Shown here piece after piece: positions 4,398 through 61,199 of a stretch of 64,000 nt of DNA. The stretch's first letter is position 1; every line of letters begins with the position of its first letter. The notes beneath the pieces were generated by a model. It saw nothing but the letters and a program-made list of their open reading frames with translations, had not been told where the DNA came from and searched no databases. A program made the position numbers and the translations under genes. Source of the DNA: Bacteroidota bacterium (lineage in GTDB: Bacteria > Bacteroidota > Bacteroidia > Chitinophagales > Saprospiraceae); the NCBI GenBank assembly GCA_024642665.1, contig JAHEAR010000014.1, forward strand, positions 1-64,000. The letters are read 5' to 3'.

Positions 4398-7091
<2,694 letters not shown>

Positions 7092-8360: not shown

Positions 8361-8380
8361 AGTTAAATTTTACCTCATTC

Positions 8381-8447: not shown

Positions 8448-8448
8448 C

Positions 8449-8895: not shown

Positions 8896-9348
8896 ATGTC
8901 ATTAGAATCAACCATCAACGAAGATCTCAAGACCGCTATGAAAGCAAAAGATGCAGTCGCTTTGCGAGGCATCCGAGCGATAAAATCTGCCGTAATGCTT
9001 TTCAATACCTCCGGTTCGGGGGCAACAATGAATAAAGAGGACGAAATCGCTATGCTGCAAAAACTGGTTAAGCAACGTCAGGACTCTCTCGATATTTTTG
9101 TTAAGCAAGGACGCGAAGATCTCGCTAGCGTAGAACGCGAAGAGATTGAAGTCATCATGCGTTATCTTCCTAAGCAACTCACCGAAGACGAACTCAAGGT
9201 TGAAGTGCAGGCGATCATCACGCGGTTAGGGGCGTCCTCTATGAAAGACATGGGTCAGGTGATGGGAGAAGCCTCAAAAGCTTTTGCAGGAAGTGCAGAC
9301 GGAAAAACAATTTCAGGAATTGTAAAAAATCTTCTTTCCGGTCAATAG
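8896..9348 (+). CDS. GatB/YqeY domain-containing protein
   Basis: The 150-residue protein matches the stand-alone YqeY family, which shares a helical tRNA-binding domain with the GatB tail of the amidotransferase. Typical features are the start SLESTINEDLKTAMKAKD, the central MLQKLVKQRQDSLDIF and the C-terminal GASSMKDMGQVMGEASKAF. The family is often linked to tRNA metabolism but has no firmly established reaction. It has the normal length and is cytoplasmic. The next gene starts 27 bases downstream on the same strand, so the two may be co-transcribed. Confidence 0.92.
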   Translation: MSLESTINEDLKTAMKAKDAVALRGIRAIKSAVMLFNTSGSGATMNKEDEIAMLQKLVKQRQDSLDIFVKQGREDLASVEREEIEVIMRYLPKQLTEDELKVEVQAIITRLGASSMKDMGQVMGEASKAFAGSADGKTISGIVKNLLSGQ

Positions 9349-9375
9349 GACGTTCTAATTTTATTTCTAATCGCG

Positions 9376-46285: not shown

Positions 46286-46471
46286 TTAGCTTTGGATTTA
46301 GAGATCTCGTTTGGGGAGGCAACGTTATAAATATTAGATACGCGAGTAAGCGGAACGCTGCTTTCAGCACAGAAAGCTATGACATTTTGGAATCCTGTAA
46401 TGAACAACCCTCCCGAATCAGTATATGTTTTTTTTGTGCGTATTTAATTAGCTCATTGCCAATGAGTTTTA

Positions 46472-47257
46472 CTATATTTTTTCTGAATTGTATTTCCGAT
46501 AGCGAATCTTTTCACCCAGTATCCAGAACCCTTTTCTCCTCCTGACATGGTAAAACCCTTTGACGTATTTTTCGAGATGGAGGATGGCTTCATTTGGATC
46601 ATCAGTGAGTTTGACATAATTCAGATCCTCAGGGGAAATAGTACCTTCCTTAATCATCAGATCCAGATAATCCATCAGGGGGGTATAGTATTCCGTACCC
46701 ATTAGGACCACCGGAAAGTGGTGGATCATACCGGTCTGAACCAGGGTTAGTGTTTCAAACATTTCATCCATGGTGCCCCATCCTCCCGGTAGTACAACAA
46801 AGGCATAGGAGTATTTTAGGAGCATAAATTTCCGAACGAAAAAATAGTCCAGCGTAACTACTTCGTGCAAAAAAGGATTTGGATCCTGTTCGAAAGGAAG
46901 GTTGATATTGCACCCTACGCTCATTCCTCCACTTTCATAAGCACCTCTGTTGGCCGCCTCCATAATCCCAGGTCCACCGCCGGTCATGACCGTAAAACCG
47001 GTTTTGGCAATCGCTCTTCCTATTTCTTCGCCTAATTTATAGTACCGGTGTTCCGGTTTGAAACGAGCAGAACCAAATACGGTGACACAAGGCCCGACAA
47101 AATGGAGTTTTCGGAAAGCCTTGATGAACTGCCGAAATACTTTGAAGCCGAAAATGAGTTCACTGCCTCTTGATTTAGGACCCTCCAGATAACTAAATCG
47201 ATTGAGCAGTATTTTCTCTTTTCCTGTTTCCGTTGTTGATGCTATTGTCTCGTTCAT
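46472..47257 (-). CDS. LOG-family protein (TIGR00730, Rossmann fold)
   Basis: A 261-residue protein with both LOG signatures, MTGGGPGIMEAANRGA and PGGWGTMDEMFE. Plant and bacterial members release cytokinin bases or cleave nucleoside monophosphates (phosphoribohydrolase); a nucleotide-monophosphate activity is the best guess. The N-terminal 50 residues are an extension and the C-terminus is basic. It is cytoplasmic and divergent from the GH73 gene, with 221 bases between them. Confidence 0.9.
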   Translation of the reverse strand: MNETIASTTETGKEKILLNRFSYLEGPKSRGSELIFGFKVFRQFIKAFRKLHFVGPCVTVFGSARFKPEHRYYKLGEEIGRAIAKTGFTVMTGGGPGIMEAANRGAYESGGMSVGCNINLPFEQDPNPFLHEVVTLDYFFVRKFMLLKYSYAFVVLPGGWGTMDEMFETLTLVQTGMIHHFPVVLMGTEYYTPLMDYLDLMIKEGTISPEDLNYVKLTDDPNEAILHLEKYVKGFYHVRRRKGFWILGEKIRYRKYNSEKI

Positions 47258-47478
47258 AAGTCTGGCTAAAGTGGAAAGATAAAACCCATTTATCGATTGG
47301 GATATTTACAGGCGTATTTTTTGGGTGCGTATGGGATCATGACAGGCATGTGGTAACCTTCCATGGAGGCAATGGTGAGCCCTACACATTATTTTTTTTG
47401 TTAAAGTGTTTTTTTGACCTGTTTGGCACAGATTTTGGCTTTTGAAAGTAGTTTTTCACATAGAGGCTCCTTTATCAT

Positions 47479-48072
47479 ATGCTTGTATTTAAAAGTGCAC
47501 TGTTATTCATTATGCTCATCCATCTGAATCCGGATGAATCAAAGAAACCATACGTGCAGTCCTATATTGAACAGTATAAGTTCATCGCCATTGACGAAAT
47601 GGATCGTTCAGGTATTCCGGCCAGCATCATTTTAGCACAGGGAATCATTGAGTCGAATGCAGGTGTTTCTAATCTGGCGATCAAGTCAAACAATCATTTT
47701 GGTATTAAGTGCAAGAGCTACTGGACCGGTAGTGCGTATTATCATCCCGATGATGATCGCGATGCAAATGGCAAGCTCATTCCGTCTTGTTTCCGAATGT
47801 ATGATTCAGTACAAGCGTCATATGCTGATCACAGTGATTTTTTAATGAATACACTCCACTATCAGCCCCTATTCGTTTACGATAAGACAGAATATGAACA
47901 ATGGGCAAAAGGACTGCAGTTATGTGGTTATGCCTCTGATCCTGCGTATGCTGATAAACTCATCCGGACGATCAAACTTTACAACCTGCACGAGTTCGAT
48001 TATTATGCCGTGCAGTATATAGAAGTTTCAAAACTAAAGCCATCCGAAGGGTTGGTAGCATCCCCTGAATAA
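47479..48072 (+). CDS. GH73 glucosaminidase-domain peptidoglycan hydrolase
   Basis: A 197-residue protein with a short hydrophobic N-terminus (possible signal). The mannosyl-glycoprotein endo-beta-N-acetylglucosaminidase fold of GH73 is evident from SGIPASIILAQGIIESNAG (the catalytic glutamate) and NNHFGIKC, then FRMYDSVQASYADHSDFL and YASDPAYADKLIRTI. It cleaves peptidoglycan glycan strands, as in cell separation. No LysM or SH3 binding domain is present. The length is the catalytic domain only. Confidence 0.93.
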   Translation: MLVFKSALLFIMLIHLNPDESKKPYVQSYIEQYKFIAIDEMDRSGIPASIILAQGIIESNAGVSNLAIKSNNHFGIKCKSYWTGSAYYHPDDDRDANGKLIPSCFRMYDSVQASYADHSDFLMNTLHYQPLFVYDKTEYEQWAKGLQLCGYASDPAYADKLIRTIKLYNLHEFDYYAVQYIEVSKLKPSEGLVASPE

Positions 48073-48158
48073 ATTTTTTCAAGGGGCTTAAAAGATGTTC
48101 ACTTTCAGTGGCCAAAGCCACCCATTACTCGGAAACCAATTCTCACGTAATTCAGCTA

Positions 48159-49220
48159 TTACTTTTCACCGGGCTGTTGGGATGGCTTTGGCGTATTTTT
48201 TAGGGGGTTGGCCGTATCCTGCTCATGCATTTTCCTCGCTTTATAAATATCGATGGCTGCAAAAAGCGCTGCTCTGAAAGAAGCAGGGTCAGCTTCGTTC
48301 TTGCCGGCGATATCGAAGGCTGTGCCGTGATCCGGCGACGTACGAACGAAGGGTAAGCCTGCTGTATAATTAACCCCATTGTTAAAATTGAGAAGCTTAA
48401 AAGGGATCAGTCCCTGATCGTGATACATGGCCAGAATAGCATCATATTTATTGAAATTCATAGATCCGAAAAATCCGTCTGCCGGATAAGGACCCATGAC
48501 TACATTGCCGGCTTTCTTGCATTCCAGAATGGCCGGACGAATAATTTCTTCTTCTTCATTTCCGATTGTTCCATTTTCTCCGGCATGTGGATTGAGTCCT
48601 AAAACGGCTATCATAGGCCGGCCAATACCAAAATCAATTTGCAGAGATTTGGTCAGTGTATTCAACTTCCTTTTTATACTTTCTACGGAAAGCATCGAAG
48701 GAACATCCTTCAATGGAATGTGCACTGTGTTAAGTGCCATTCTTCGGTGATCTGCAATCATCATCATCAATCCTTCCTTGACGCCAAATTCATGCGCCAG
48801 GTATTCGGTATGTCCGGGATATTGAAATCCCGCCAGCTTCATGGCATTTTTACTGATTGGCGCGGTCACCAGTGCATCAATATGGCCATCCTTCAAATCT
48901 CTGACCGCCTGATCAAGGGCGATATGAGCAATTTTACCGGCCTCTTCTGTTTCTTTTCCTAATTCTATATTGATATTTTCCTGCCAGATATTTACCACAT
49001 TAATCCGCTGGTGATAGATTTTGTCTGCCGAAGCAGTGGTGTTAAAGGAAAAATCAGCCGGGTTAACGATGTTTTTATGGTAACTCATCACCTTGCTTGA
49101 ACCATAGATGACCGGCGTGCATAATTGCACGATCGATGGATGTGCCAGCGTCTTTATGATGACTTCTGGTCCTATCCCGTTAATATCTCCAATAGTAATC
49201 CCTAATCGAATCGTGCCCAT
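48159..49220 (-). CDS. pdxA: 4-hydroxythreonine-4-phosphate dehydrogenase PdxA
   Basis: A 353-residue NAD-dependent enzyme of pyridoxal 5'-phosphate biosynthesis. It oxidises 4-phosphohydroxy-L-threonine. Landmarks include GITIGDINGIGPEVIIK, VTAPISKNAMKLAGF, the metal-binding PGHTEYLA, YHDQGLIPFK and SPDHGTAFDIAGK. The last 20 residues (KMHEQDTANPLK onward) are a hydrophilic extension not needed for the fold. Cytoplasmic and monocistronic; converges on the GH73 gene. Confidence 0.95.
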   Translation of the reverse strand: MGTIRLGITIGDINGIGPEVIIKTLAHPSIVQLCTPVIYGSSKVMSYHKNIVNPADFSFNTTASADKIYHQRINVVNIWQENINIELGKETEEAGKIAHIALDQAVRDLKDGHIDALVTAPISKNAMKLAGFQYPGHTEYLAHEFGVKEGLMMMIADHRRMALNTVHIPLKDVPSMLSVESIKRKLNTLTKSLQIDFGIGRPMIAVLGLNPHAGENGTIGNEEEEIIRPAILECKKAGNVVMGPYPADGFFGSMNFNKYDAILAMYHDQGLIPFKLLNFNNGVNYTAGLPFVRTSPDHGTAFDIAGKNEADPASFRAALFAAIDIYKARKMHEQDTANPLKNTPKPSQQPGEK

Positions 49221-49457
49221 ATGATGTTGCTAAGTGGTTGAGTGAATAGGGGCAAAGATACACTTCGACGGGGGAGTGCGAAGTCCTTTATGCACTTAGT
49301 ACCCATCTGGAGAAGCAATTACATCTCTAATTTAATGAATATGACCACAATCATTAGTATTAATGACCCCTCTCATGAAAGCAATTGGGCAGACGGTTAT
49401 AATTTTAGATGTTCAAGAATTAGGTGTCAATACTATTTCAAAGCAGACAAATTGAAT

Positions 49458-49844
49458 ATGAGAAATAAGCTAATTATACAGTCAGTCATTCTAGTGGGGA
49501 TGGTTTTTATAAGTGTTATTTCCTGCACCTATGAAGAGGTGCTTCCTTACCAACCGGATCCGGGAGTTGATGTGCTTTTTGGTGCAGATATCATACCCAT
49601 TTTTGAAGGCAATTGTACTGCCTCCGGATGCCATAACGGTTCCGGACCCGCTCCGGATTTGAGATCTTCAGTGGCCTATGATGCCCTTTGGATGGGCGGA
49701 TATATCAATACAGAAACACCCGAACAAAGCAACCTTTACTTGTGGATGACGGATGCTTTTGGACCGATGCCTCCACAGGGTGGAAATGCTACAAACAATG
49801 CAAATGTGCTCCAGTGGATTAAACAAGGAGCACTCAATAATTAA
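49458..49844 (+). CDS. Cytochrome-like lipoprotein with a C-x4-CH site
   Basis: A 128-residue lipoprotein. The start at 49458 (MRNKLII) gives a signal with lipobox VISC; an upstream in-frame extension adds 72 unpromising residues. The mature part has FEGNCTASGCHNGSG, a C-x4-C-H motif with one histidine, close to a haem-c site but with two extra residues. It ends in a cytochrome-like MPPQGGN...NVLQWIKQGAL segment, which is seen in cytochrome c-type lipoproteins. It leads the electron-transfer cluster and is followed 24 bases later by a DUF5777 barrel gene. Whether it binds haem is uncertain. Confidence 0.7.
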   Translation: MRNKLIIQSVILVGMVFISVISCTYEEVLPYQPDPGVDVLFGADIIPIFEGNCTASGCHNGSGPAPDLRSSVAYDALWMGGYINTETPEQSNLYLWMTDAFGPMPPQGGNATNNANVLQWIKQGALNN

Positions 49845-49868
49845 GCGTTTAAGAAAAACCGAACTTCA

Positions 49869-50813
49869 ATGTCACTATCAGGATATAAATTTATTATCGT
49901 ATGCTGCTTAAGCATACTCCAATGGACAGGAATTCAGGCTCAGGAGGTGGAGCAACCCGTGGAAAGCAAGCCGGTGAAAAACACTTTTTCAAGTATCTGG
50001 ATTATCGACAATCAAACCGTCATGGTACCTTATAAGGGTACTTTTGAATTCGATATCCAGCATCGCTTTGGTTTGGTCTATAATGGATTTGAGGATTTAT
50101 GGGGCTTGTATGCGCCATCCAATATACGGTTGGGGTTTTCCTATGTCCCCGTGGATAAGCTCATGGTAGGGTTTGGGTTAACAAAGAACAACTTAACCTG
50201 GGATTTTAATGCGAAATATGCCATTTTGAAGCAAATGTCTTCCGGTGGAAGCCCGGTCAGTCTTACCTATTATGGCAATACGGCCATTGATACCAGAGAT
50301 AAAAGCTATTTCGCCAATGCGAATGATCTGGCCTTTACAGACCGGATGTCCTTTTTCCATCAGCTTATGGTTGCGAGAAAAATATCTGATAAACTTTCGC
50401 TTCAATTGGCCGGAAGTTTATCCCATTTCAATGCTGTGTATCCAACCGAAAATCCTTCCGATGGCAGTCTTCAGGAATTAGAAAACGACAATTTTTCAAT
50501 TGCGCTTTCTGCCCGATATAAGATATCCAATGCGATGAACATATTAGTGAACTATGATCAACCGCTCACTACGCGCCCTTCCTCTGATCCGGAAAAGCCT
50601 GATACCAAAGATCCTAAACCAAATCTTTCATTAGGTATAGAAATTAATTCCAGCGCGCACCAGTTTCAAATATTTGTTGGAAACTATAACAGCCTTATCC
50701 CACAGATCAACAATGCCTACAATACAAATTGGGGTTTTGGAGACAAAAAATTTTCCCTCTGGGATCCGGAATGGTTGATTGGATTTAATATTACCCGATT
50801 GTGGAGTTATTGA
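49869..50813 (+). CDS. DUF5777-family outer-membrane beta-barrel protein (copy 1)
   Basis: A 314-residue protein with a signal peptide (about 1-23, IQAQ) and the DUF5777 pattern of alternating beta strands: SIWIIDNQTVMVPYKGTFEF, NIRLGFSYVPVDKLMVGFG, ILKQMSSGGSPVSLTYYGN. The C-terminus ends in the aromatic LIGFNITRLWSY, typical of an outer-membrane barrel recognised by BAM. No function is established for the family. A paralogue closes the same cluster at 57478-58407, so a structural role in the cluster is likely (inference). Confidence 0.82.
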   Translation: MSLSGYKFIIVCCLSILQWTGIQAQEVEQPVESKPVKNTFSSIWIIDNQTVMVPYKGTFEFDIQHRFGLVYNGFEDLWGLYAPSNIRLGFSYVPVDKLMVGFGLTKNNLTWDFNAKYAILKQMSSGGSPVSLTYYGNTAIDTRDKSYFANANDLAFTDRMSFFHQLMVARKISDKLSLQLAGSLSHFNAVYPTENPSDGSLQELENDNFSIALSARYKISNAMNILVNYDQPLTTRPSSDPEKPDTKDPKPNLSLGIEINSSAHQFQIFVGNYNSLIPQINNAYNTNWGFGDKKFSLWDPEWLIGFNITRLWSY

Positions 50814-50848
50814 GAGAGGATTTTCACACCTAATAATTTAGATTAAAA

Positions 50849-51100
50849 ATGAATCAGGAGGAAAAGGAGAAAAATTCGAGACGAAGGTTTCTAGCCTTGG
50901 GCATGTTCGGTGATGTTGGTTTGGAAAAACTGCACGCCAAGACAACACCAGGAAGTGATGAAACCATCCCGATGTTAACCGCCGATGGAAAGTTGGTAGA
51001 AATTAATAAAGCCTTATTGGACAACGTAAAACGAGAGAAGGCCACAAATCACGATATTTTAAACTGGTCTGAACCACTTAAACATTCAAAGCTACCCTGA
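50849..51100 (+). CDS. Short Tat-motif protein preceding the iron-sulfur subunit
   Basis: An 83-residue protein. The N-terminus has a twin-arginine-like SRRRFLALG but the following hydrophobic core is weak (MFGDVGLEKL), so export is doubtful. The segment TIPMLTADGKLVEINKALLD resembles the ELVTVDSSAL region of the next protein's N-terminus. I recognise no family. The stop and the next ATG share a base (TGATG), which couples it to the Fe-S gene. It may be a small subunit or a Tat-type assembly partner. Confidence 0.6.
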   Translation: MNQEEKEKNSRRRFLALGMFGDVGLEKLHAKTTPGSDETIPMLTADGKLVEINKALLDNVKREKATNHDILNWSEPLKHSKLP

Positions 51101-52029
51101 TGGAAAAACATATAATTGAACCGACAAATCCAAGAAGGGATTTTCTTAAAACAGCAGCGATCGGTGTCGCCATAGCCTCTTGCGGCAGTGCGCTATGCAG
51201 TTGTAATAAAAGCAACAGCAATAGCGAAGATCAGGTGGTATTGCTATCTCCGGAAGGTGAACTTGTGACGGTTGACTCGTCAGCGTTGAAAGCCGCGAAT
51301 AAATCTCATTGTGTTTCAGGTGAGGCATCACGCAAAGGTATTCCGGGAAAGAAATTTGTAATGGTCGTGGATCTTGCCAGGTGCAAAAATGCTCAGAAAT
51401 GTCAGGAATCCTGTGATAAGAATCATCACACACAATATCCGAAAGAATATCTGAAGGTTTTGAAAATGCAGGATAATCCATCAGCTTCTCCATACTGGCA
51501 ACCCACCATGTGTTTTCATTGCGATGAACCGCCATGTGTTAAAGTGTGCCCTGTGGATGCCACGTTCAAAAGAGATGACGGATTGGTATTGATTGACAAT
51601 GATCGATGTATAGGATGTCGGTTTTGCATGGCAGCATGTCCTTATTCACAGCGCGTTTTCAACTGGGGCGAACCTGAAAAAATAGAATCTGAAATTACCT
51701 GCAAATCCCCGGAAAAGAGTGGTGTGAATACTACAATGGGAACAGTTGAAAAATGTGATTTCTGTCCGGACATGGTGAGAGAAGGTCAGATGCCCCACTG
51801 CGTAAGTGCATGCCCCAATGGGGTGTTTTACTTTGGGGATGAAAATGAAGATGCGGTCTCTAACGGAGAAGATACAGTCCGGTTGAGTAAACTATTGGCA
51901 GACAGAGCCGGCTATCGGGCGATGGAGGATTTGGGCACCAAGCCCCGGTTGTACTATTTGCCTCCTGTAAATCGACTGTTTCCATTTGAAGATGCAGCAG
52001 AAACTGAAGAAGATCATTCTGCAAACTAA
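51100..52029 (+). CDS. Tat-exported 4Fe-4S ferredoxin-type subunit (DmsB/NrfC/DsrO-like)
   Basis: A 309-residue electron-transfer protein. A Tat signal (RRDFLKTAAIGVAIA) precedes a linker and a four-cluster ferredoxin fold. Cysteine groups are CKNAQKCQESC (three cysteines, one fewer than canonical), CFHCDEPPCVKVCP, CIGCRFCMAACP and CDFCPDMVREGQMPHCVSACP. In known complexes this subunit passes electrons between a quinol-oxidising NrfD protein and a partner. The NrfD gene follows directly. It should act on the periplasmic side. No molybdopterin catalytic subunit gene is in the cluster. Confidence 0.93.
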   Translation: MEKHIIEPTNPRRDFLKTAAIGVAIASCGSALCSCNKSNSNSEDQVVLLSPEGELVTVDSSALKAANKSHCVSGEASRKGIPGKKFVMVVDLARCKNAQKCQESCDKNHHTQYPKEYLKVLKMQDNPSASPYWQPTMCFHCDEPPCVKVCPVDATFKRDDGLVLIDNDRCIGCRFCMAACPYSQRVFNWGEPEKIESEITCKSPEKSGVNTTMGTVEKCDFCPDMVREGQMPHCVSACPNGVFYFGDENEDAVSNGEDTVRLSKLLADRAGYRAMEDLGTKPRLYYLPPVNRLFPFEDAAETEEDHSAN

Positions 52030-52057
52030 ATCTATCTCACGAGACAAATTGTAAATA

Positions 52058-53416
52058 ATGGATATCAACAAAGTGCAATCGAATGAGCAAATAGAGAAAG
52101 ATTTGATGCCTAGGGCTTTTGGTCCGTATGGTAAACTATGGGTAGTGTTTTTGCTCTTCATTGGTGGTATTGGTCTTTACTATTATGTGCAGCAATTACG
52201 CCATGGATTGGTGGTCACCGGCCTGCGAGATTATACAACATGGGGTATTTACATTGCCAATTTTGTTTTTTTCGTCGCAATCAGTTTGGTCGGATCACTC
52301 ATGAGTGCAGTGCTTAAACTAACGAATGTGAAATGGCGTACACCGTTGACCAGAATATCCGAAATGATTGCGGTCGCGGCCATCATGTTTGCTGGCTTAA
52401 TTATTATAGTGGACATGGGTCGACCGGACAGATTTCTGAATGTCATTTTCCATGCAAGAATTCAATCCCCCATCACTTGGGATGTGATCGTCATTACGAC
52501 CTACTTGTTTATAAGCATGCTCTTATTGTATTTGCCCTTATTGCCAGATCTTGCCATCATGCGGGACAGGTTCAAGACCATTCCAAAATGGCAACAAAAG
52601 ATGTATGCTTTTATGGCCAACAACTGGAAAGGAACATCGGAGCAACACAAGATTTTGAATAAATCAGTTATGCTCTTGTCCGTTATGATTATTCCTGTGG
52701 CTTTTGGCATTCACACGGTCACTTCATGGCTTTTTGCCACAACCCTGAGACCGGGTTGGGACAGCACCAATTTTGGGCCTTATTTTATTTCAGGTGCCTT
52801 CATGGTTGGAGCAGGTGCTGTAATTGCCACCATGTTTGTGTTTAGAAAATTTTATGGACTTCATAAATATATTACACTGGATCATTTTGATAAAATGGGC
52901 AGGTTGCTGGTGCTATTGTCATTGGTCTATTTGTATTTTAATGTCAACGAATACTTTGTTCCGGCGTACAAAATGAAAGGTTCGGAAAGCGCCCATCTGA
53001 AGGAGTTGTTTACGGGAGCGTATGCTCCGTTATTCTGGTCTGTTCAGATTGGCGGAATGCTTATTCCAATCATTGTCCTGCTATTTAAAAAAGGAAGAAC
53101 ACCGTTAATCATGTTTGTCATTTCCATAATGGTTATCGTCGGCGCATGGTTTAAGCGATTTCTGATTGTCATTCCAACATTGCATCATCCTTATTTTCCA
53201 ATGGATCAGGCACCTGAAGCGTGGAGTCATTATACACCAACATTTGCTGAATGGTGTATTACCGGAGGATCTCTGGCCGGTGCACTTTTGATTGTTACGT
53301 TTCTGGTAAGATATTTTCCTATCATACCGGTTGAAGAAACCATTGAAGAACAGAAGGGTGGTACTAATGAATTAAATATTGAACGCGGGTATCAACCACA
53401 AATCGAAAAAATATGA
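52058..53416 (+). CDS. NrfD/PsrC/ActC-type membrane quinol-interacting subunit
   Basis: A 452-residue protein with about nine to ten hydrophobic helices. Conserved segments include RISEMIAVAAIMFAGLIIIVDMGRPDR, shortened here to VDMGRPDRFLNV, and NEYFVPAYKMKGSES, both near the quinone pocket in NrfD relatives. The length and pattern fit the ActC branch. It probably oxidises menaquinol and hands electrons to the preceding Fe-S subunit. Stop and next start overlap in ATGA at 53413-53416, so the following gene is coupled. Confidence 0.92.
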   Translation: MDINKVQSNEQIEKDLMPRAFGPYGKLWVVFLLFIGGIGLYYYVQQLRHGLVVTGLRDYTTWGIYIANFVFFVAISLVGSLMSAVLKLTNVKWRTPLTRISEMIAVAAIMFAGLIIIVDMGRPDRFLNVIFHARIQSPITWDVIVITTYLFISMLLLYLPLLPDLAIMRDRFKTIPKWQQKMYAFMANNWKGTSEQHKILNKSVMLLSVMIIPVAFGIHTVTSWLFATTLRPGWDSTNFGPYFISGAFMVGAGAVIATMFVFRKFYGLHKYITLDHFDKMGRLLVLLSLVYLYFNVNEYFVPAYKMKGSESAHLKELFTGAYAPLFWSVQIGGMLIPIIVLLFKKGRTPLIMFVISIMVIVGAWFKRFLIVIPTLHHPYFPMDQAPEAWSHYTPTFAEWCITGGSLAGALLIVTFLVRYFPIIPVEETIEEQKGGTNELNIERGYQPQIEKI

Positions 53417-54336
53417 GGACCCAATTGAGTAGAAAAATGTTATTCTCCCTTCTCATAAGGAGTATGTATTTGTTAGTTCTGGTGCTTTGTTTTTTCAACC
53501 AGGGATTTGCCCAAGCGGAAGGAGAAGATCAGAGTCCTGAGGCCAATGAAAAACTTAGTCTCCGAATGAGTTTTGACGTATATAAAATTAATGATGATTA
53601 TAAACTGGTTGCTAAAGCAAGAGTAAAAATCAATAACCGATATCAATTTATCAGTGATGTGAATGTTGATTTTTACACCGGAGAATCAGATGCCCAAATC
53701 CATTTAGGCAAAGGCGTAACCAATGAAAAAGGAGAAGCCTCTTTGATCGTTAAATCAAATCAAATCAGTGCGCAAACAACACCTTATGCCTTTTCCGTGC
53801 TGGCACAGAATAATTCGAAATATGATGACGAAGAGAAAAGTGTGATGGTCAATTCTGGTCAGTTAAAAATGGATTTGATGGAAGAGGATAGTGTCAAAAC
53901 TGTTAAACTTTTTGTTGGCGCTCTCGATTCAACCGGTCAAGTGGTGCCTATGGAAGACGCCAGCTGTCAGTTGTATGTAAAAAGACTATTTGGAAAACTT
54001 CCGGTCGGGGATGCTGAATCCACGGATGAAGAAGGACAGGTAACTTTTGAGTTTCCTGGGGACATTCCGGGAGATGAGAAAGGAAACATTACAATCATTG
54101 CAAGCATTGCCGAAAATGAGGTCATAGGAAATATAGAGACCAATCAGATTATGGCATGGGGTCAACCTATTACAGAGGAATATTTTTTTAGCAAGAGGGA
54201 ATTATGGTCGGCAAGGGCTAACTCCCCTATTTCGCTAATCATTATTGTTAATGCGGTATTAATAGGGGTTTGGGGTGTCATCTTTTATATATTTTTAGAA
54301 ATCAATAGAATTCATAAAATTGGGAAAATAAGTTAA
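53413..54336 (+). CDS. Single-pass Ig-like protein in the NrfD operon
   Basis: A 307-residue protein with a signal peptide (about 1-34, GFAQ). Two beta-sandwich (Ig- or cna-B-like) domains fill the periplasmic part: about 45-150 with VDFYTGESD and GEASLIVKSN, and about 155-255 with QVTFEFPGDIPGDE. A C-terminal helix (about 277-300, ISLIIIVNAVLIGVWGVIF) anchors it to the membrane. No cofactor site is visible. Translational coupling to NrfD (ATGA) suggests that it is a subunit or scaffold of the complex. I know no described family for it. Confidence 0.7.
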   Translation: MRTQLSRKMLFSLLIRSMYLLVLVLCFFNQGFAQAEGEDQSPEANEKLSLRMSFDVYKINDDYKLVAKARVKINNRYQFISDVNVDFYTGESDAQIHLGKGVTNEKGEASLIVKSNQISAQTTPYAFSVLAQNNSKYDDEEKSVMVNSGQLKMDLMEEDSVKTVKLFVGALDSTGQVVPMEDASCQLYVKRLFGKLPVGDAESTDEEGQVTFEFPGDIPGDEKGNITIIASIAENEVIGNIETNQIMAWGQPITEEYFFSKRELWSARANSPISLIIIVNAVLIGVWGVIFYIFLEINRIHKIGKIS

Positions 54337-54441
54337 GTATTTTGCAGTGTTTTAATAGGGAAGCGCCATATACTCTCCGCTGAATTTTGAGAAGAGGAGT
54401 TGAATCAGGAGTAAATATTTTTTAACTTTAACACAAAAAAA

Positions 54442-54843
54442 ATGAAACAAATCGTTTATTATTTTGCAGGTCTGTTAATTGTTGCCGCCGTAGGTATGGC
54501 TTTTATGGCAAAGCCTGTTGCTAATGATCCATGGCCGGTACCGGATAAGTATAAAGCCATGAAAAATCCTGTAACATTTGACAAAAGCGCTGCGGCAGCA
54601 CTTTATTCCACCCATTGTAAATCATGTCATGGGAAAGAAGGTTTGGGAGATGGAACCAAGGCCGCCCAGCTGGATACGGATTGTGGTGATTTTAGTTCTC
54701 CGGAATTCCAAAAGCAAAGTGATGGATCGATCTTTTATAAGACGATGGAAGGAAGAGATGATATGCCCAGCTTTAAGAAGAAAATTCCCGATGAAGACGA
54801 TATCTGGCAGTTGGTGCATTATCTGCGCACACTGAAAGGATAA
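54442..54843 (+). CDS. Monohaem c-type cytochrome
   Basis: A 133-residue protein with an N-terminal signal anchor (about 5-24). The haem-binding motif is CKSCH near residue 58, and the axial methionine is likely in GRDDMPSF. The C-terminal helix is DIWQLVHYLRTL. It fits a class I cytochrome c that shuttles electrons in the periplasm. It is the last gene before a terminator and lies 105 bases after the Ig-like protein gene, possibly with its own weak promoter (TTG-N20-TAACTTTA). Confidence 0.92.
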   Translation: MKQIVYYFAGLLIVAAVGMAFMAKPVANDPWPVPDKYKAMKNPVTFDKSAAAALYSTHCKSCHGKEGLGDGTKAAQLDTDCGDFSSPEFQKQSDGSIFYKTMEGRDDMPSFKKKIPDEDDIWQLVHYLRTLKG

Positions 54844-54858
54844 AAAGTAAATGATAAT

Positions 54859-54888
54859 GGGGCTATCCGCCTGGATAGTCCCGTTTTT
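54859..54888 (+). terminator. Terminator after the cytochrome gene
   Basis: GGGGCTATCC (54859-54868) pairs with GGATAGTCCC (54873-54882) around GCCT, with one G-T pair, followed by G and five T. It divides the cluster into two transcripts. Confidence 0.88.
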
Positions 54889-55010
54889 CTACAACGGTAG
54901 CCTGTTGGTTTTTATCGTTTAGAAATAGCCGTATGTGCTGTTCAAGCCATCTTCATCTCACCGTCTAATTATTCCAGTCTATCAAACAGTTCCAAAGTAA
55001 CCCACTATTT

Positions 55011-56228
55011 GTGCGGGTTTTTCTAGTAATGGGTATTGCCTCTTTATTGTTTGGCATGTACCAGTATTATTTTGCCGGCATAAAAGGGTTAATCAAACTT
55101 GAGATCGGGAAATCTAATAACCTGATCCTACGTGTCGGGGAAGCGGGAGAGATTTCCCAACAAAAGGATCAAATGGGTCTGACCATCACGCTTGATTCTG
55201 TAGTGATCAGACAGTATACTCCAACCTATGAAATCACTTTGTGGAAACTAAACAAGGCAGATACCACCCTTTCAGCTAAATCCCACGGGTCCGGATATAC
55301 TTTCATTGAACGCTTCTCTAGTGAACCCATGGAAATCAGACAAATTGAAAAGACTGATTTCTATTTTAGACTCAAAGCATTCTATCCCAATTTTGAATTT
55401 GCCTATCAGTATCCTGAAGATAGGGATACAATAGCAGCCCATGATCCCGGCATTACGATAGAACTTACCACTAACGAAGGAAACCCAATAGTGACACTTC
55501 AATCGGAACCCCCGTCCAAACGCCATTTAAAAGATATTGTTGGGCTGGGAGCAGCACTTTCATTTTATCAAGCCATATCGTTAGATAGCATCAAGGCAAT
55601 AAGTGTCAGAGGTAACCCCGGGGAGGACAGAATTATTTTAACCGGGTCTGATCGAAAGATGTATCATCTGCTGGATGGTTTGATAGAGGAAAAGCCATTT
55701 GAGGAGAATATATTTTATCCTATGCCGGGTCACGATAGTGTTGGCTTTAAGGTTCTATTCTGTTTTCCTGATATCGCTTACCTAAAGGCAGTGCCCTCGA
55801 CCAAAGGTGATGAGCCGCTAAATCCGGTGGCCAATATTGAAATCTGGAAAGCCGGACAGGGTGCTGTTGATGCATTTATTTACCCGGAAACCAATGTGCG
55901 TAAAGGGGGTGATTTTGGCATTCCAGGTTCTGATTACAAGCTCGGCTTACGCATCAATCCTGAGCAGCGAGTCCACTATAGTGATTGTCATATTTCAATT
56001 CGGGATGCAAGCAGCAAGATAGTTGAATCCCTCACATTTCATTCCGGAGAGCGTAAATCTTATCAGAATTTGCGTTTTCAACCGGTGGATTGCAATGATC
56101 AATATCCAAAACATCTTACCCTTGAAGTCACAAAAAGGAACAGCTTTCTGCCTGTTTTTTTTGGTTTTTTATTTCTCGGAATAGCACTCTTTCTTTTATT
56201 TATAGGTAAAAGCCACAAAGGGGTCTGA
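55011..56228 (+). CDS. ResB-like cytochrome c biogenesis protein
   Basis: A 405-residue membrane protein with a helix near the N-terminus (about 4-22), a large beta-rich periplasmic part and a C-terminal helix (about 378-400, LPVFFGFLFLGIALFLLF). The periplasmic part has ResB-like strands, FYPNFEFAYQY and GNPIVTLQSEPP. ResB/Ccs1 proteins carry haem for attachment to apocytochromes together with ResC/CcsA. Only one helix precedes the periplasmic domain, fewer than in typical ResB, so the call is moderate. The start is GTG at 55011; ATG at 55029 is possible. Confidence 0.6.
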   Translation: MRVFLVMGIASLLFGMYQYYFAGIKGLIKLEIGKSNNLILRVGEAGEISQQKDQMGLTITLDSVVIRQYTPTYEITLWKLNKADTTLSAKSHGSGYTFIERFSSEPMEIRQIEKTDFYFRLKAFYPNFEFAYQYPEDRDTIAAHDPGITIELTTNEGNPIVTLQSEPPSKRHLKDIVGLGAALSFYQAISLDSIKAISVRGNPGEDRIILTGSDRKMYHLLDGLIEEKPFEENIFYPMPGHDSVGFKVLFCFPDIAYLKAVPSTKGDEPLNPVANIEIWKAGQGAVDAFIYPETNVRKGGDFGIPGSDYKLGLRINPEQRVHYSDCHISIRDASSKIVESLTFHSGERKSYQNLRFQPVDCNDQYPKHLTLEVTKRNSFLPVFFGFLFLGIALFLLFIGKSHKGV

Positions 56229-56371
56229 AAGGAGTGTTGTTTGCCTATCGCTCTTATTTTCAGCCTATGAGTAAGATCAATTTGCGGACTGATGATCATC
56301 ATCTGTGTTTTGGCCTATTATCTTAAAATTTGAGACGCAATCGATTTTGTAAAAGCAATAAACCAATTTAT

Positions 56372-57424
56372 ATGAAAAATTATTTGTTTTTGATCTTCGC
56401 TTTTTCTTTGGCTATCATGATGGGATTGACCTCTTGTGAAGGAAAAGACGGGTCAATTGGGCCTGAAGGACCGGCTGGTCCTACAGGGCAGACTGGAGAA
56501 GGTACCCAAAACTGCGTTTTGTGTCATGGAAGTTCACAGTTAATAGCCGCCAAGCAGTTTCAATGGGAACATTCTGTACACGCTACAGGAGGTCACTATG
56601 AGCGAAACCAGACTTCTTGTGCAGGTTGCCATACAAGTCAAGGTTTCCTTGAAAGAATAGAAACAATGTCAGATCAGGGCGTAACAGCAGCCGATATTGA
56701 GGATCCCTTACCACAAAACTGCTATACTTGCCACCAGATTCACAGAACTTATACAGCAGCTGACTGGGCTTTTACGCAGGAAGATCCTGTAACCCTTTGG
56801 GAAGGTGGACAGACCGTCGATTTAGGAAAGGCCAATCTTTGTATCAGTTGCCACCAATCCAGAGTTGTTTCTCCTGCATTGCCGGATCCAAGTACCGGTG
56901 GTTTGGTCAATATTCAAACCACTCGTTACGGACCACACCATGGCCCTCAGGGAGTAATGTTGCCGGGTTTGAATGGATATGAAGTAGCCGGCCCGCAACC
57001 CTATGAAAATTCTGCGCATACCTTGCTTCTCGCCAATAACACTAGCAAAGCATGTATAGTTTGTCACATGGGAACTGCTCAGGCGACTGAATCCGGTGGA
57101 CATACATTCCGCGTGATTAGTGAGGGTGGAGATATCAATACAGATGCTTGTGTAGCCTGCCACCCGGTAGCTGCCGATGTAGAAGCACTTGTTGAAGACC
57201 GTCAGGCGCAGATTGAAGAAAAAATTGCTGAGCTGGAACAGTTACTTGCTGATCGTGGACTGTATGATATAGCTAAAGGACAAAATAGTAAAGGAGATTA
57301 TACGGGACATGAAGCTGGTGCTTTATACAACCTGAAGTTTGTGGAAGAAGATAAGAGTCGTGGGGTACACAACTTTAAGTATGCTTATGCTTTGTTGACT
57401 AATTCCATAGCGGCACTACAATAG
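56372..57424 (+). CDS. Hexahaem c-type cytochrome lipoprotein with collagen-like spacer
   Basis: A 350-residue lipoprotein. The start at 56372 (MKNYLFLIF) gives lipobox LTSC; an upstream TTG is rejected. A short Gly-x-y collagen-like segment (about 24-43) follows the lipidated cysteine. Six CxxCH haem sites are present: CVLCH, CAGCH, CYTCH, CISCH, CIVCH and CVACH. The C-terminal helix (about 280-310) is Glu/Leu-rich (IEEKIAELEQLL). It probably sits in the outer membrane or periplasm and conducts electrons. It precedes a DUF5777 barrel gene by 53 bases. Confidence 0.92.
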   Translation: MKNYLFLIFAFSLAIMMGLTSCEGKDGSIGPEGPAGPTGQTGEGTQNCVLCHGSSQLIAAKQFQWEHSVHATGGHYERNQTSCAGCHTSQGFLERIETMSDQGVTAADIEDPLPQNCYTCHQIHRTYTAADWAFTQEDPVTLWEGGQTVDLGKANLCISCHQSRVVSPALPDPSTGGLVNIQTTRYGPHHGPQGVMLPGLNGYEVAGPQPYENSAHTLLLANNTSKACIVCHMGTAQATESGGHTFRVISEGGDINTDACVACHPVAADVEALVEDRQAQIEEKIAELEQLLADRGLYDIAKGQNSKGDYTGHEAGALYNLKFVEEDKSRGVHNFKYAYALLTNSIAALQ

Positions 57425-57477
57425 AGGGGTCACTGCATTTCAATGAATATTGTATTTAAGCAATAAAGTTTTTTCAA

Positions 57478-58407
57478 ATGATCTCCAATAGTAATGATCG
57501 AATAAGGCTGAGTCTCGCAGGACTAAAATACTTTTTAACTTTTGCTTTTATTTTCATCAGCATGGTTAGTGTCGTTGCGCAGGAAGCAATGGTTGAAGAG
57601 GAGGTGGTTGTTGAGAAGAAACCGGTAAAGAAAACCTTTGAAAGTATCTGGCTGATCGATGCACAAACAGTGATGGTGCCCTACAAAGGTACCTTCGAGG
57701 TTGATTTTCAACACCGGTTTGGCACCTGGAACAATGGATACAAAGATTTCTACGGAGTCTTCGCATCATCCAATATTCGTTTAGGATTTGATTATGTACC
57801 GGTGGAGAATCTGGAGGTTGGATTTGGCCTTACGAAGTTCAACAACCTTTGGGATTTTTATGGTAAATATGCTATACTTAAACAAATGCAAAACGGTGGC
57901 TCTCCGGTGAGTTTGAGTTATTATATTAATGCTGCAGTGGATACACGCCGGGAAGAGGATACAAAATTTACAGAGGGAACAGATCGTTGGTCATTCTTTC
58001 ACCAAATCATGGCCGCCAGAAAAATCACAGACAAGCTCTCCGTACAAATCTCCGGAAATATGTCCTGGTTTAATTATGCAGATGTGTATGATAGTAATGG
58101 GGAATTTTTAGGAGAAGACCAGAAAGCACATTTTTCCGGAACTTTTCTGGCGCGCTATAAACTATCCAATACGATCGGTCTCACTGTTGAATATGATCAA
58201 CCTTTTACTTCCAGTTCATCGCTACGTAAGCCGGAACCAAATTTAAGTGTAGGATTGGAATTGGTTACCAGTTCACATGCATTCCAACTTTTTGTTGGAA
58301 ACTATCAGGCACTCGTACCTCAATACAATCATACTTATAACACCAACAACTTCTTTGACAATGAGATCCTGATTGGGTTTAATATCACCCGACTCTGGAA
58401 TTTTTAA
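57478..58407 (+). CDS. DUF5777-family outer-membrane beta-barrel protein (copy 2)
   Basis: A 309-residue paralogue of the protein at 49869-50813. It has the same core (SIWLIDAQTVMVPYKGTF, SNIRLGFDYVPVENLEVGFG, YAILKQMQNGGSPVSLSYY) and the same barrel end, LIGFNITRLWNF. A signal peptide ends near residue 35 (VVAQ). The inner loops differ in length from copy 1, so the copies are not recent duplicates. Each copy directly follows a cytochrome-like lipoprotein gene. Confidence 0.85.
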   Translation: MISNSNDRIRLSLAGLKYFLTFAFIFISMVSVVAQEAMVEEEVVVEKKPVKKTFESIWLIDAQTVMVPYKGTFEVDFQHRFGTWNNGYKDFYGVFASSNIRLGFDYVPVENLEVGFGLTKFNNLWDFYGKYAILKQMQNGGSPVSLSYYINAAVDTRREEDTKFTEGTDRWSFFHQIMAARKITDKLSVQISGNMSWFNYADVYDSNGEFLGEDQKAHFSGTFLARYKLSNTIGLTVEYDQPFTSSSSLRKPEPNLSVGLELVTSSHAFQLFVGNYQALVPQYNHTYNTNNFFDNEILIGFNITRLWNF

Positions 58408-58431
58408 TCATCCATTTATAATAGCGTTGCT

Positions 58432-58466
58432 AAAAGAGCATGGTCTGAATAAGATCATGCTCTTTT
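58432..58466. terminator. Bidirectional terminator between DUF5777 and rodA
   Basis: A 15-base arm at 58432-58446 pairs with 58452-58466 with one G-T pair around a 5-base loop, with AAAA/TTTT flanks. It lies between convergent genes. Confidence 0.9.
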
Positions 58467-58474
58467 ATTCAATG

Positions 58475-59863
58475 CTACATTACTCTTCTGGACCTTACCC
58501 AACTGGAATCCATACTAATCAATATGCCAATCAGCATACTGAAGCCCAGTAAAGAGGAGCCTCCTGAACTAATAAATGGAAGCGGGATGCCGATCACAGG
58601 CATCAGTCCCATCGTCATGCCGATATTCACAAGAAAGTGGGTAAATAAAACCCCTACTACCCCATAGGCATAGTGGCGGATAAAAGGTACTCTGGCTCGC
58701 TCACCGATATTGATCATTCGAAGCATCAGAATAAGAAATAACATAATCACAGCCATGGAACCAATGAAGCCATGTTCTTCACCAATAATACTATAAATAA
58801 AATCAGTACTCTGTTCCGGGACGTAATTGAGCTTTGTCATGGTACCTTGCAAATATCCTTTTCCGGTTAGTCCACCAGATCCAATCGCAGTTTTGGATTG
58901 AAGAATATTATATAGGGAACCACGTGGATCACAATCTTCCGGATTGAGCCATACATTGATCCTGTCCTGCTGATGTGGCTCGAGGACATTGGTAAAAATA
59001 TATGAACTCGTATAAGCAAATCCAAACAGGATTGAAATGCCAAAAGATAATAGAACTACTTGTCGTATTTGTTTAATAAGGAAGCTTTCTATCGCTGCAT
59101 AAAGCATAAAAGCAACTGAAATACCAATGACCAATTCCAATTGATTTAAGATGGCTAAAATGATCGAAAAGGTGATGGCCATCAGACTAACAAGCACATG
59201 CGATTGCTTGCGTTTTATACTGGCTAATAAAAAAATACCACCCGCCATTAACAAAAGAGGGAGTACTACAAATACATCAAATTTCAGCGTGAGTACAAAT
59301 AACAAACCCAGAATAAAAATCAATATAGGAATCCAGATGGCGAGCCCTTCTCTGAGTAATACCAGAAATATAGAAAGAAAAACAAGCGCAGAACCTGCAT
59401 CTCCCTGAGCAAGAATTAAAACCGCAGGAAGCAAAATAATACCGGAGGCTACCATCAGATCTCGCGTATCTGTGAGCCGGGTTCGATGATGACTCATGAA
59501 GGAGGCCAGCGCCATGATGGTTCCGACCTTAGCCAACTCGGAAGGTTGAAAAGTAAATCCACCCAACTGGAACCAACTCGTCGATCCTTTGATGGTTGTA
59601 CCGATCAGCAGTACCAATACCAGAAGAAAAAGACTAATCGCATAAAAAGGATAGGCAAATCCACTCCAGAACTTCCAGTCAATTAAGTGTGAACCAGTTA
59701 GAATAACTAACGAAATAATGACAAAAATACTTTGCTTGCCCGCCTGCGTGGCTAAAAAAGGTTTTTCGGCTTCCGGCTGATACCCTGATGCATAAATCAT
59801 CAGCAGGCCGATAATAATCAGGCTGATGACAATAGCAAAACTAATCCAATCAAATTTTTTCAT
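58475..59863 (-). CDS. rodA: Rod-shape-determining peptidoglycan glycosyltransferase RodA
   Basis: A 462-residue SEDS-family polymerase with about ten membrane helices. Conserved stretches are GGFTFQPSELAKVGTIMALA, VPEQSTDFIYSIIGEEHGF and the final PVIGIPLPFISSGGSSLL. It polymerises lipid II glycan strands for side-wall growth with a class B PBP. It is the last gene of a run with deoC and a SPOR protein, the gaps being 7 and 9 bases. Confidence 0.94.
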   Translation of the reverse strand: MKKFDWISFAIVISLIIIGLLMIYASGYQPEAEKPFLATQAGKQSIFVIISLVILTGSHLIDWKFWSGFAYPFYAISLFLLVLVLLIGTTIKGSTSWFQLGGFTFQPSELAKVGTIMALASFMSHHRTRLTDTRDLMVASGIILLPAVLILAQGDAGSALVFLSIFLVLLREGLAIWIPILIFILGLLFVLTLKFDVFVVLPLLLMAGGIFLLASIKRKQSHVLVSLMAITFSIILAILNQLELVIGISVAFMLYAAIESFLIKQIRQVVLLSFGISILFGFAYTSSYIFTNVLEPHQQDRINVWLNPEDCDPRGSLYNILQSKTAIGSGGLTGKGYLQGTMTKLNYVPEQSTDFIYSIIGEEHGFIGSMAVIMLFLILMLRMINIGERARVPFIRHYAYGVVGVLFTHFLVNIGMTMGLMPVIGIPLPFISSGGSSLLGFSMLIGILISMDSSWVRSRRVM

Positions 59864-59872
59864 TTCGTTGAC

Positions 59873-60298
59873 CTACTGATCAAATTGCAACAACTCTTCC
59901 ATAGTTAAGTTGTCCGTAACAGGAATCGCTTGTGGAAAATCCTTTTGCATTTTGTATAAAAAAGCCTGAGCCTTTTGCATGGTCATGAAAGCACCTGCCT
60001 TAAGGTGATAGTAGGGGTAGTTATGGACAAAAAGAATGGGATACTCCGGATACATTCGTTCGAACTTTTTACGAATTTCTTCTGCCTGCCTTCGATCTGT
60101 ACTCGCCATTATTTGTATACGATAGCCACGAAGTTCCTGGTGGGTTTCATTATAACTTGTCCATCTGTCCATCAGCGAAGTGATCTGACTTTCCTGGACC
60201 AGCTGGGCATTGGCCAGTGTGGCAGCAAAAATGAACATCATCGCAGTTACTGTTTTCACATGCGGTCCTGACCGCCAAAAAGAGATAGTTATTTTCAT
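59873..60298 (-). CDS. Exported SPOR-domain-like protein
   Basis: A 141-residue protein with a signal peptide (about 1-31, LANAQ) and a C-terminal SPOR-like domain: YRIQIMASTDRRQAEEIRKKF, HLKAGAFMTMQKAQAFLYKM. SPOR domains bind glycan strands without stem peptides at the septum. It lies 9 bases upstream of rodA and 7 bases after deoC, so it is probably expressed with the elongation enzyme. The domain call rests on the pattern of strands and helices. Confidence 0.78.
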   Translation of the reverse strand: MKITISFWRSGPHVKTVTAMMFIFAATLANAQLVQESQITSLMDRWTSYNETHQELRGYRIQIMASTDRRQAEEIRKKFERMYPEYPILFVHNYPYYHLKAGAFMTMQKAQAFLYKMQKDFPQAIPVTDNLTMEELLQFDQ

Positions 60299-60305
60299 AA
60301 ATGAC

Positions 60306-60971
60306 TTATTCGAAAGACTGCATGGTTCCTTTAACGATACTTACACTCTTACTGCATCCCAGTCTGTCTGCACCGGCTCGAATCATTTTCATAGCTTCAT
60401 TATAATCGTTGATTCCACCGGAAGCTTTTATCCGTATACCCGGTTCAAGATGTCGTCGGAGGAGTTTGATGGTCTCTTCTCTGACCGGATCACCAAAGAA
60501 ACCGGTTGATGTTTTAACGTAGGAAAGCTTTAGCTCATTGCTGATTTCACAAATGTGCATAATTTCAGATTCAGTCAGCAATTGTGCTTCGATGATACAT
60601 TTTAGGGTGACGGAACATTGAAGGGCATTATCCCGGAGGGCTGTTAATTCGGATTTTGTGATGGACCAATGCCCGGTTTTTATTGCGGAAAGATTAATCA
60701 CGACATCCACTTCATCTGCTCCCAGCGCTGCGGATCTTTGCAGGGAGGCCAGTTTGGCTTCCACATGATCATACCCTATAGGGAAGCCTGCAACGGTGCA
60801 TAATAGAAAAGATCTTTCTTCTGCATGTTCGCGGGCATATTGTAAATACATCGGTGGTATGCAAATCGCCTTAAAACCATAGGTCATGGATTCATTAATC
60901 AGTCGGTCAATCACCTGTTCTGTGCAATCAGGCCGGAGATAACTGTGATCTATATATTGTGCTAGCTGCAT
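60306..60971 (-). CDS. deoC: Deoxyribose-phosphate aldolase DeoC
   Basis: A 221-residue class I aldolase that splits 2-deoxyribose 5-phosphate into glyceraldehyde 3-phosphate and acetaldehyde. The Schiff-base lysine is in LSYVKTSTGFF, and the phosphate-binding region IRIKASGGIND is intact, as is the catalytic EVDVVINLSAIKTG. Size matches bacterial DeoC. It starts an apparent operon with the SPOR protein and rodA; the functional link is not obvious. Confidence 0.94.
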   Translation of the reverse strand: MQLAQYIDHSYLRPDCTEQVIDRLINESMTYGFKAICIPPMYLQYAREHAEERSFLLCTVAGFPIGYDHVEAKLASLQRSAALGADEVDVVINLSAIKTGHWSITKSELTALRDNALQCSVTLKCIIEAQLLTESEIMHICEISNELKLSYVKTSTGFFGDPVREETIKLLRRHLEPGIRIKASGGINDYNEAMKMIRAGADRLGCSKSVSIVKGTMQSFE

Positions 60972-61004
60972 ATCACTTCGAAGATACTATTTGCTTTATT
61001 TATT

Positions 61005-61199
61005 GAGTGATTGAGTGATTGAGTGATTGAGTGATTGGTGATGAGTGATTGGTGATGGGTGATTGAGTGATGAGTGATTGGTGATGGGTGATTGAGTGAT
61101 GAGTGATTTGGTGACGTTTTGGTCATAAAAGTATTTTCTTCGGCCCTCAGCCCTCAGCCCTTCGCCCCATGCCCTTCGCCCCATGCCCTTACCTTACCG
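61005..61199. repeat. Short-period repeat tract downstream of dapD
   Basis: From 61005 to 61110 the sequence consists of GAGTGATT, GGTGAT, GGGTGATT and GAGTGAT units. A 29-base higher-order unit is repeated exactly at 61051-61079 and 61080-61108. From 61139 to 61195, CCCTCAGCCCTTCGCCCCATG-type units (a shortened description) run up to the dapD stop. Confidence 0.85.

Follow-up and report, generated by a model that had tools for sequence, protein, structure and literature searches.

Introduction

SirCD of Shewanella has been described as a two-part iron-sulphur (Fe-S)/NrfD quinol dehydrogenase that feeds quinol electrons into periplasmic pathways, and Cbc4 (CbcSTU) of Geobacter as a cytochrome, an Fe-S protein and a membrane protein with no molybdenum subunit. 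NhcABCD has no molybdopterin fold either, and a review of the NrfD family counts its nine-haem cytochrome as the catalytic subunit. Here we describe a ten-gene cluster from a Bacteroidota bacterium of the family Saprospiraceae, in which an Fe-S protein and an NrfD-type membrane protein stand beside haem proteins and two outer-membrane barrels of the DUF5777 family. It lies at positions 49,458 to 58,407 of a stretch of 64,000 nucleotides (GenBank assembly GCA_024642665.1, contig JAHEAR010000014.1, positions 1 to 64,000 of the forward strand), which we call the window. A first-pass annotation of the window, made from the sequence alone, had held that known NrfD complexes pair this module with a catalytic or molybdopterin-fold subunit; SirCD and Cbc4 do not, and the generalisation has to be given up.

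The sections of the NrfD review that we drew on list no complex with the composition of the window cluster, and we found no description of the cluster in the open-access PubMed Central literature, a scope that is not proof that it is unpublished; DUF5777 likewise goes unnamed in the literature searched there. Judging from gene content and conserved residues, we put at slightly better than even (about 0.55) the reading in which the Fe-S and NrfD proteins form a quinol dehydrogenase that feeds a haem and barrel module at the outer membrane.

Gene content of the cluster

All ten consecutive plus-strand genes named by the first-pass annotation are present, from 49458 to 58407. Pfam and NCBIfam models bear out its identification of the two DUF5777 proteins, the 4Fe-4S protein, the NrfD protein, the monohaem cytochrome c and the multihaem protein, but the gene that it called ResB-like is truncated. 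The features are listed below with the letters used throughout (B stands for either DUF5777 gene; Tat, twin-arginine translocation).

49458..49844, + strand: L, class-I-cytochrome-like lipoprotein that has a single CX4CH haem motif and, at its C-terminal end, a conserved Met-Pro (no Pfam/NCBIfam match)
49869..50813, + strand: B1, DUF5777 outer-membrane barrel (PF19089, 248 bits, cut-off 23.1)
50849..51100, + strand: t, short protein that carries a Tat-like motif (RRRFLALG) and lacks any motif for a cofactor (no Pfam/NCBIfam match)
51100..52029, + strand: F, Tat-exported Fe-S subunit of 309 amino acids with 15 cluster Cys (Pfam 4Fe-4S dicluster)
52058..53416, + strand: N, NrfD-family quinone-site membrane subunit, ActC-like (PF03916, 118.9 bits, cut-off 25.8)
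53413..54336, + strand: I, immunoglobulin-like (Ig-like) protein (Big_1, 26.4 bits, below the cut-off of 34.9)
54442..54843, + strand: c, monohaem cytochrome c with CKSCH and a distal Met-Pro (Cytochrome_CBB3, 40.9 bits)
54856..54888, + strand: terminator-like hairpin and T run directly after c (minimum free energy -21 kcal/mol, z -5.85)
55011..56228, + strand: R, N-terminally truncated ResB-like frame (no Pfam/NCBIfam match; ResB alignment)
56372..57424, + strand: M, hexahaem lipoprotein whose lipid Cys is followed by a collagen-like Gly-X-X stretch (Cytochrome_C7; six CXXCH)
57478..58407, + strand: B2, second DUF5777 barrel (PF19089, 239.5 bits, cut-off 23.1)

Relatives and distribution

A profile-guided scan of genome contigs confirmed at least 578 related stretches, among which there may be more distant NrfD types, and the best 80 of them serve here as relatives, their genes labelled by phmmer with the window proteins. 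In all 81 cases F is the gene directly before N, and in 80 of 82 the gene after N is I, a synteny that rules out chance clustering of the genes; L adjoins a DUF5777 gene in 60 of 69. F, N, I and c are all present in each of the 39 well-flanked loci (those with at least six genes before N and at least four after it), L is present in 38, and a homologue of t was labelled in 28. The position of c varies, since it follows I in some loci and lies between B and t or F in others. The gene set of the first-pass annotation therefore stands as a recurring core, but the hexahaem gene, labelled in 0 of the 39 well-flanked loci, and the second barrel are only optional parts of it.

By title, 78 of the 80 stretches come from Bacteroidota taxa, one from an uncultured bacterium and one from Comamonas. 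The contig labelled Comamonas (L129) bears a cluster of Bacteroidota type, groups with Bacteroidota rows in the tree of N, and is probably mis-binned. Carriers include the cultured species Niastella vici, Solitalea agri and Limnovirga soli. Within the family of the window's genome, N of the window type (58-69% identity) occurs in 7 of 150 genomes and a second group of N (34-42% identity, E 4e-79 or better) in 9, the two together covering 12; nearly all remaining matches (~30-34% identity, E above 1e-60) are of the alternative complex III (ACIII) kind, as is the best N match of the sole congener in that sample (G012). Across the phylum, the profile of I matches 12 of 392 genomes, ten strongly (E below 1e-40, including the window's genome) and two weakly (G371 and G259); eight of the nine other strong genomes were inspected, and all have F-N-I or, where the contig ends (G524), N-I. 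From these two sets of counts it follows that the gene set is widespread but patchy. A tblastn search of plasmids with N returned 35 records, all below 60% identity, 15 of them listed at 27-34%.

A tree of N, built from 19 window-type, 12 second-group and 18 ActC rows with ActF left out, resolves three separate groups (support 99/98, 99/98 and 100/100, respectively), and the ActC group is set off by a long branch. One locus, L065, bears both of the other subfamilies in tandem, so that window-type and second-group N are paralogues with the same partner genes.

The quinone module

The solved structures closest to N are those of ActC chains (6btm_C, E 1.1e-57), in which, according to the NrfD review, His139, Ser164, Asp169 and Asp253 form the quinone site and Arg395 the gate. 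When these positions are mapped onto N by profile alignment, D119 (at the position of His139) is kept in 81 of 84 rows, S137 and D142 (Ser164 and Asp169) in 84 of 84 each, and R367 (Arg395) in 83 of 84. N is thus a member of the NrfD/PsrC family both by its PF03916 score, which is above the cut-off, and by its quinone-site acid/His, Ser and Asp and its gate Arg.

In F, the 15 Cys are invariant in 80 of 80 rows, as are His109 and Tyr182. Motif III is complete (CIGCRFC), with its Cys and the Tyr182 of its CPY kept in all 80; motif I reads CX5CX3C, and its second Cys is absent from every one of the same rows and from all nine of the second-group F proteins checked. The relatives of F in the PDB are 6cz7_B, which we take to be ArrB, 2vpw_B (PsrB) and ActB chains, and both 6cz7_B and 2vpw_B retain the Cys that motif I lacks in F. 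Proteins of this Fe-S family use motif I for the cluster that sits away from the quinone and normally faces the catalytic subunit. Because this cluster is altered in F and the catalytic subunit is missing, the sequences suggest that electrons may leave F by a new exit. By motif, although not by alignment, Tyr182 may be equated with Tyr113 of QrcC, which has been described as needed for Qrc function. Residues C59, C62, H63, M108 and P109 of c are kept in 69 of 69 rows.

Neighbouring genes and molybdoenzymes

The unlabelled frames of at least 90 amino acids within eight genes of a core gene were clustered across the 80 loci, and 23 families proved to recur in four loci or more, led by an EB_dh lipoprotein (in 32), a YceI lipoprotein (in 29) and a CRP-type regulator (in 10). 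With one representative of each family scanned, none of the 23 is a molybdoenzyme (two have no Pfam match), and no such gene is consistently adjacent in relatives, in keeping with the first-pass claim that the cluster lacks a catalytic subunit. Of 22 cluster-bearing genomes searched for the molybdopterin family, 19 have matches, and G125, G518 and G293, two of which are ~99-100% complete, have none. Within the reach that short contigs in several genomes allow, one frame of 615 amino acids with two molybdopterin matches lies ~12 kb from the cluster (G233), and every other match is at a distance of more than 0.6 Mb or on a different contig. The frame in G233 is the only one with a match within 15 kb, so that the cluster does not show the feature of complex iron-sulphur molybdoenzymes (Psr, Dms, Ttr, Arr), a molybdenum-bis(pyranopterin guanine dinucleotide) catalytic subunit encoded with the Fe-S and NrfD proteins; the window's own contig (C38) has no molybdopterin match. 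Within this reach, the scan of neighbour families and the molybdopterin search speak against a catalytic subunit lost at the edge of the cluster.

The window's genome has a separate ACIII operon on contig C57, adjoining an oxidase gene and encoding ActD (172 bits), an ActB that has both a molybdopterin and an Fe-S domain, along with NrfD, haem proteins and an ActF-like frame with no Pfam match; the cluster would thus be an additional outlet for quinol or quinone. We looked for haem-copper oxidase subunit I and for YceI in 18 of the 22 cluster-bearing genomes, and since all 18 have the oxidase (and YceI as well), carriers of the cluster can probably respire oxygen. The same oxidases bear on the opposite direction of flow, in which DUF5777 would admit a donor, the haem lipoproteins would collect its electrons, and c with F-N would reduce quinone in the manner of Qrc, or the electrons would pass partly to oxygen via oxidases. 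In Qrc, as described, menaquinone is reduced by the QrcCD pair with electrons that a periplasmic cytochrome supplies, and with subunit I in 18 of 18 genomes donor electrons could reach oxygen; however, the cluster holds no recognisable donor-oxidising enzyme, and the oxidase count comes from cluster-bearing genomes with no matched cluster-free set beside them. We regard this reversed flow as unlikely.

The outer-membrane side

The CX4CH of L is found in 54 of 56 homologues shorter than 170 amino acids, and an alignment of 57 rows (the window and these 56) has Met104 in 53 of them and Pro105 in 54. With this motif and its conserved C-terminal Met and Pro, L resembles class I cytochromes, except that its haem motif is widened; at L167-L170, four loci of more distant genomes, CX2CH replaces CX4CH. 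Many L proteins have acidic residues or Lys-Asp right after the lipid Cys, a start that presumably recalls the surface-export signal of Bacteroidota.

The AlphaFold2 model of B2 (mean predicted local distance difference test score, pLDDT, 88.9) has 12 long strands and is closest to KdgM (4pr7_A; Z 18.8, root-mean-square deviation 2.1 over 167 residues), with FapF, autotransporter, COG4313 and NanC barrels also near; the COG4313 channel has been described as a likely route for hydrophobic molecules. The first-pass annotation had electrons go to the outer membrane or an external acceptor; transport across the whole of that membrane is not supported, given a barrel that models as a 12-strand one of KdgM/NanC type. 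The barrels of porin-cytochrome conduits (MtrCAB/Pcc) have over 20 strands, and a barrel of MtrB type holds a multihaem wire, as a 12-strand barrel cannot; the DUF5777 model is not such a large barrel enclosing a multihaem cytochrome, which argues against a conduit.

Extracellular electron transfer of the Mtr/Pcc type would have the barrel hold a haem wire and M or L reduce solids outside. M is indeed a multihaem lipoprotein with a collagen-like stretch, and locus L124 has a porin-cytochrome-like set near F-N, but beside the 12 strands of the barrel stand the single haems of L and c, the want of a labelled M in any well-flanked locus, and the occurrence of the L124 arrangement in 1 of 80 loci; we consider such transfer very unlikely. 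The set itself (L124, 7602-13358), four to six genes from the NrfD cluster, comprises a five-haem OmpA-type protein, a 653-amino-acid protein with no Pfam match and a 13-haem cytochrome with an MtrC/MtrF-like domain, apparently a porin-cytochrome set in a Bacteroidota contig.

DUF5777 occurs in 157 of the 392 sampled phylum genomes. At 12 loci outside the NrfD cluster, hand-picked from the matches in these 157 genomes, a YceI gene lies within three genes of DUF5777 in all 12 and a clear monohaem lipoprotein match was found in 10; the third DUF5777 of the window's genome (L053) has neighbours of the same kind. Since DUF5777 keeps such company outside the NrfD cluster, the cluster has apparently linked up with a haem-lipoprotein/barrel module that occurs on its own as well. 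The L053 genes (6542-9699, contig C22 of G000) encode a PSCyt1/CBB3 lipoprotein, a haem-motif lipoprotein, a tRNA_anti-like protein, YceI and DUF5777, and sets like this one recur across the phylum.

A YceI-type lipoprotein also lies within five genes of the core in 29 of 80 loci (one of the 33 members of this family was scanned by Pfam). Both associations, and the oxidases of all 18 genomes tested, would suit a role in protecting the envelope, in which quinol electrons re-reduce lipocalin-bound quinone or quench lipid radicals at the outer membrane, as a counterpart of Burkholderia LcoA/BcnA; BcnA, a YceI lipocalin, has been described as lowering lipid peroxidation with a cytochrome b561 partner. 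Yet no YceI gene adjoins the cluster of the window itself, YceI is widespread anyway (6 of 14 control genomes), and the 12 DUF5777/YceI loci were picked by hand, so that we hold this role to be quite unlikely.

Optional genes, transcription and other features

In 32 of the 80 loci the gene directly preceding the core is that of an EB_dh lipoprotein, presumably of haem-b type; more members were confirmed in L164 and L167. At L104 (5613-6962) and in relatives, this EB_dh-domain lipoprotein precedes the core with no recurring molybdoenzyme family beside it. M is present in the window, in L065 and in second-group loci such as L044, L046, L050, L051 and L052, with more distant copies in L167 and L170. 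Its Gly-X-X stretch has G27, G30, G33, G36, G39 and G42 in all 8 rows aligned. M reaches 23 bits with PRK11125, the NrfA model, whose cut-off is 595, has no match by sequence in the PDB (E up to 0.1), and gives an AlphaFold2 model of low confidence (mean pLDDT 45.6).

R aligns (55029 to 56219) to residues 164-567 of a 573-amino-acid ResB, residues 1-163 with the N-terminal helices being missing, and no CcsA was found in the window with the CcsA-like proteins of L050 and L052 as queries. With no full ResB and no CcsA, the window does not hold the ResB/CcsA maturation pair, which is present in L065 by Pfam (ResB, 134.5 bits; CcsA, 135.4 bits) and in L050 and L052 by likeness; CcsA-type genes occur elsewhere in the window's genome. 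R is a probable remnant of this cytochrome c maturation pair, and its truncation disfavours a working maturation factor. The ResB of L044 is also short (417 amino acids) but has a predicted N-terminal helix, and it makes a functional short ResB variant possible.

None of 200 shuffles was as stable as the hairpin after c, which had been missed by a general terminator pattern scan (11 sites vs 9.3 expected). Given this strong hairpin and its T run, the ten genes are probably not one transcript; the hairpin suggests a transcription unit L-B-t-F-N-I-c, with R and M-B behind it. An Rfam search of 46000-60500 returned 0 matches. I has hydrophobic stretches at its N terminus (residues 8-32) and C terminus (268-300), and is probably a periplasmic protein with one C-terminal anchor; the window's copy of t has no hydrophobic stretch at the hydropathy threshold used. 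A candidate docking motif common to t (DGKLVEI) and F (EGELVTV) was set aside as a feature of the window pair whose generality is not shown, the pattern matching 6 of 49 t rows and 19 of 79 F rows.

Two features lie outside the cluster. At 43625-46285, on the minus strand, is the gene of an 886-amino-acid protein in which we count, by eye, some nine PKD-like repeats that resemble one another (FGDGHSGDGQNPTHEYD); as a by-product of the repeats, the other strand has long open frames as well. At 60996-61184, again on the minus strand, a short simple-repeat frame (SLNHSITQSLN-like) lies between two genes and is probably intergenic repeat DNA.

Discussion

In the reading that we favour, F and N would form a membrane quinol dehydrogenase of the NrfC/NrfD kind with no catalytic subunit. 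Quinol, probably menaquinol, would be oxidised at the site in N beside the complete proximal Fe-S cluster, and its electrons would run down the Fe-S chain and leave through the altered distal cluster of F. The monohaem c, docked by the Ig-like I, would take them from F and hand them to haem lipoproteins that we place at the outer membrane, namely L and, where present, M or the EB_dh lipoprotein. These lipoproteins would work with the DUF5777 barrel, which would let a small molecule, acceptor or donor, in or out.

Several points weigh against this proposal. Redox, proteomic or genetic data turned up for none of the cluster's members, and the sequence does not give the direction of flow, given that Qrc, with a related module, reduces menaquinone. 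One quinone-site residue is not kept, the position of Asp253 in ActC being Leu225 in N. No core gene is an obvious terminal enzyme; M may have a catalytic role as a hidden enzyme, and a catalytic partner may be encoded elsewhere, since 19 of the 22 genomes have some molybdopterin match. Finally, the 12-strand barrel, as modelled, would be too small for a cytochrome wire of the Mtr type.

If the proposal is right, many Bacteroidota possess, in addition to ACIII, another quinol outlet, one directed towards the outer membrane, DUF5777 gains a role, and the cluster offers a natural test of what the NrfCD module does without a catalytic subunit. A more specific version, which we put forward as doubtful, would make the cluster a hitherto undescribed respiratory module of Bacteroidota. 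In it, a catalytic-subunit-free NrfCD quinol dehydrogenase with a remodelled distal exit cluster would power a redox station at the outer membrane, built of CX4CH haem lipoproteins and 12-strand barrels, and aerobes would use it to bring electrons to that membrane itself (lipocalin-bound quinone or oxidised lipids being examples) and not to an anaerobic terminal acceptor.

Among known systems, ACIII provides the nearest solved structure for N, with quinone-site and gate residues that map. However, F has no molybdopterin-fold domain and lacks a Cys in motif I, whereas the genome's own ActB has both domains, a complete motif I and CVGTRYC as motif III; C38 has one NrfD match, with no ActD or second NrfD (ActF) beside N; and N forms its own clade apart from ActC. 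DsrOP of DsrMKJOP supplies the best NCBIfam models for F and N, but F reaches 179.4 bits against a DsrO cut-off of 200 and N 141.8 against a DsrP cut-off of 350. The cluster differs from NrfABCD in having no NrfA, M scoring far below the cut-off for it. QrcABCD and NhcABCD, as described, likewise join an NrfCD-type quinone module to a multihaem cytochrome, but here the multihaem protein is optional and the partners would lie at the outer membrane. The DUF5777 model shares its fold with the 12-strand KdgM/NanC and COG4313 channels, although their identity to DUF5777 is only ~8-15%. SirCD (Fe-S and NrfD-type proteins) and Cbc4 (an Fe-S protein, a membrane protein and a c-type cytochrome) are likened to the cluster by anatomy only, all three having an Fe-S protein and a membrane protein and no molybdenum subunit, and the cluster has a cytochrome partner as well; the accounts of them that we drew on name no Ig-like subunit, CX4CH lipoprotein or DUF5777 partner. 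By its anatomy, then, the cluster is a variant of the molybdenum-free NrfCD kind of quinol dehydrogenase, and it is neither ACIII nor Dsr, since it does not show the defining features of either for which it was tested.

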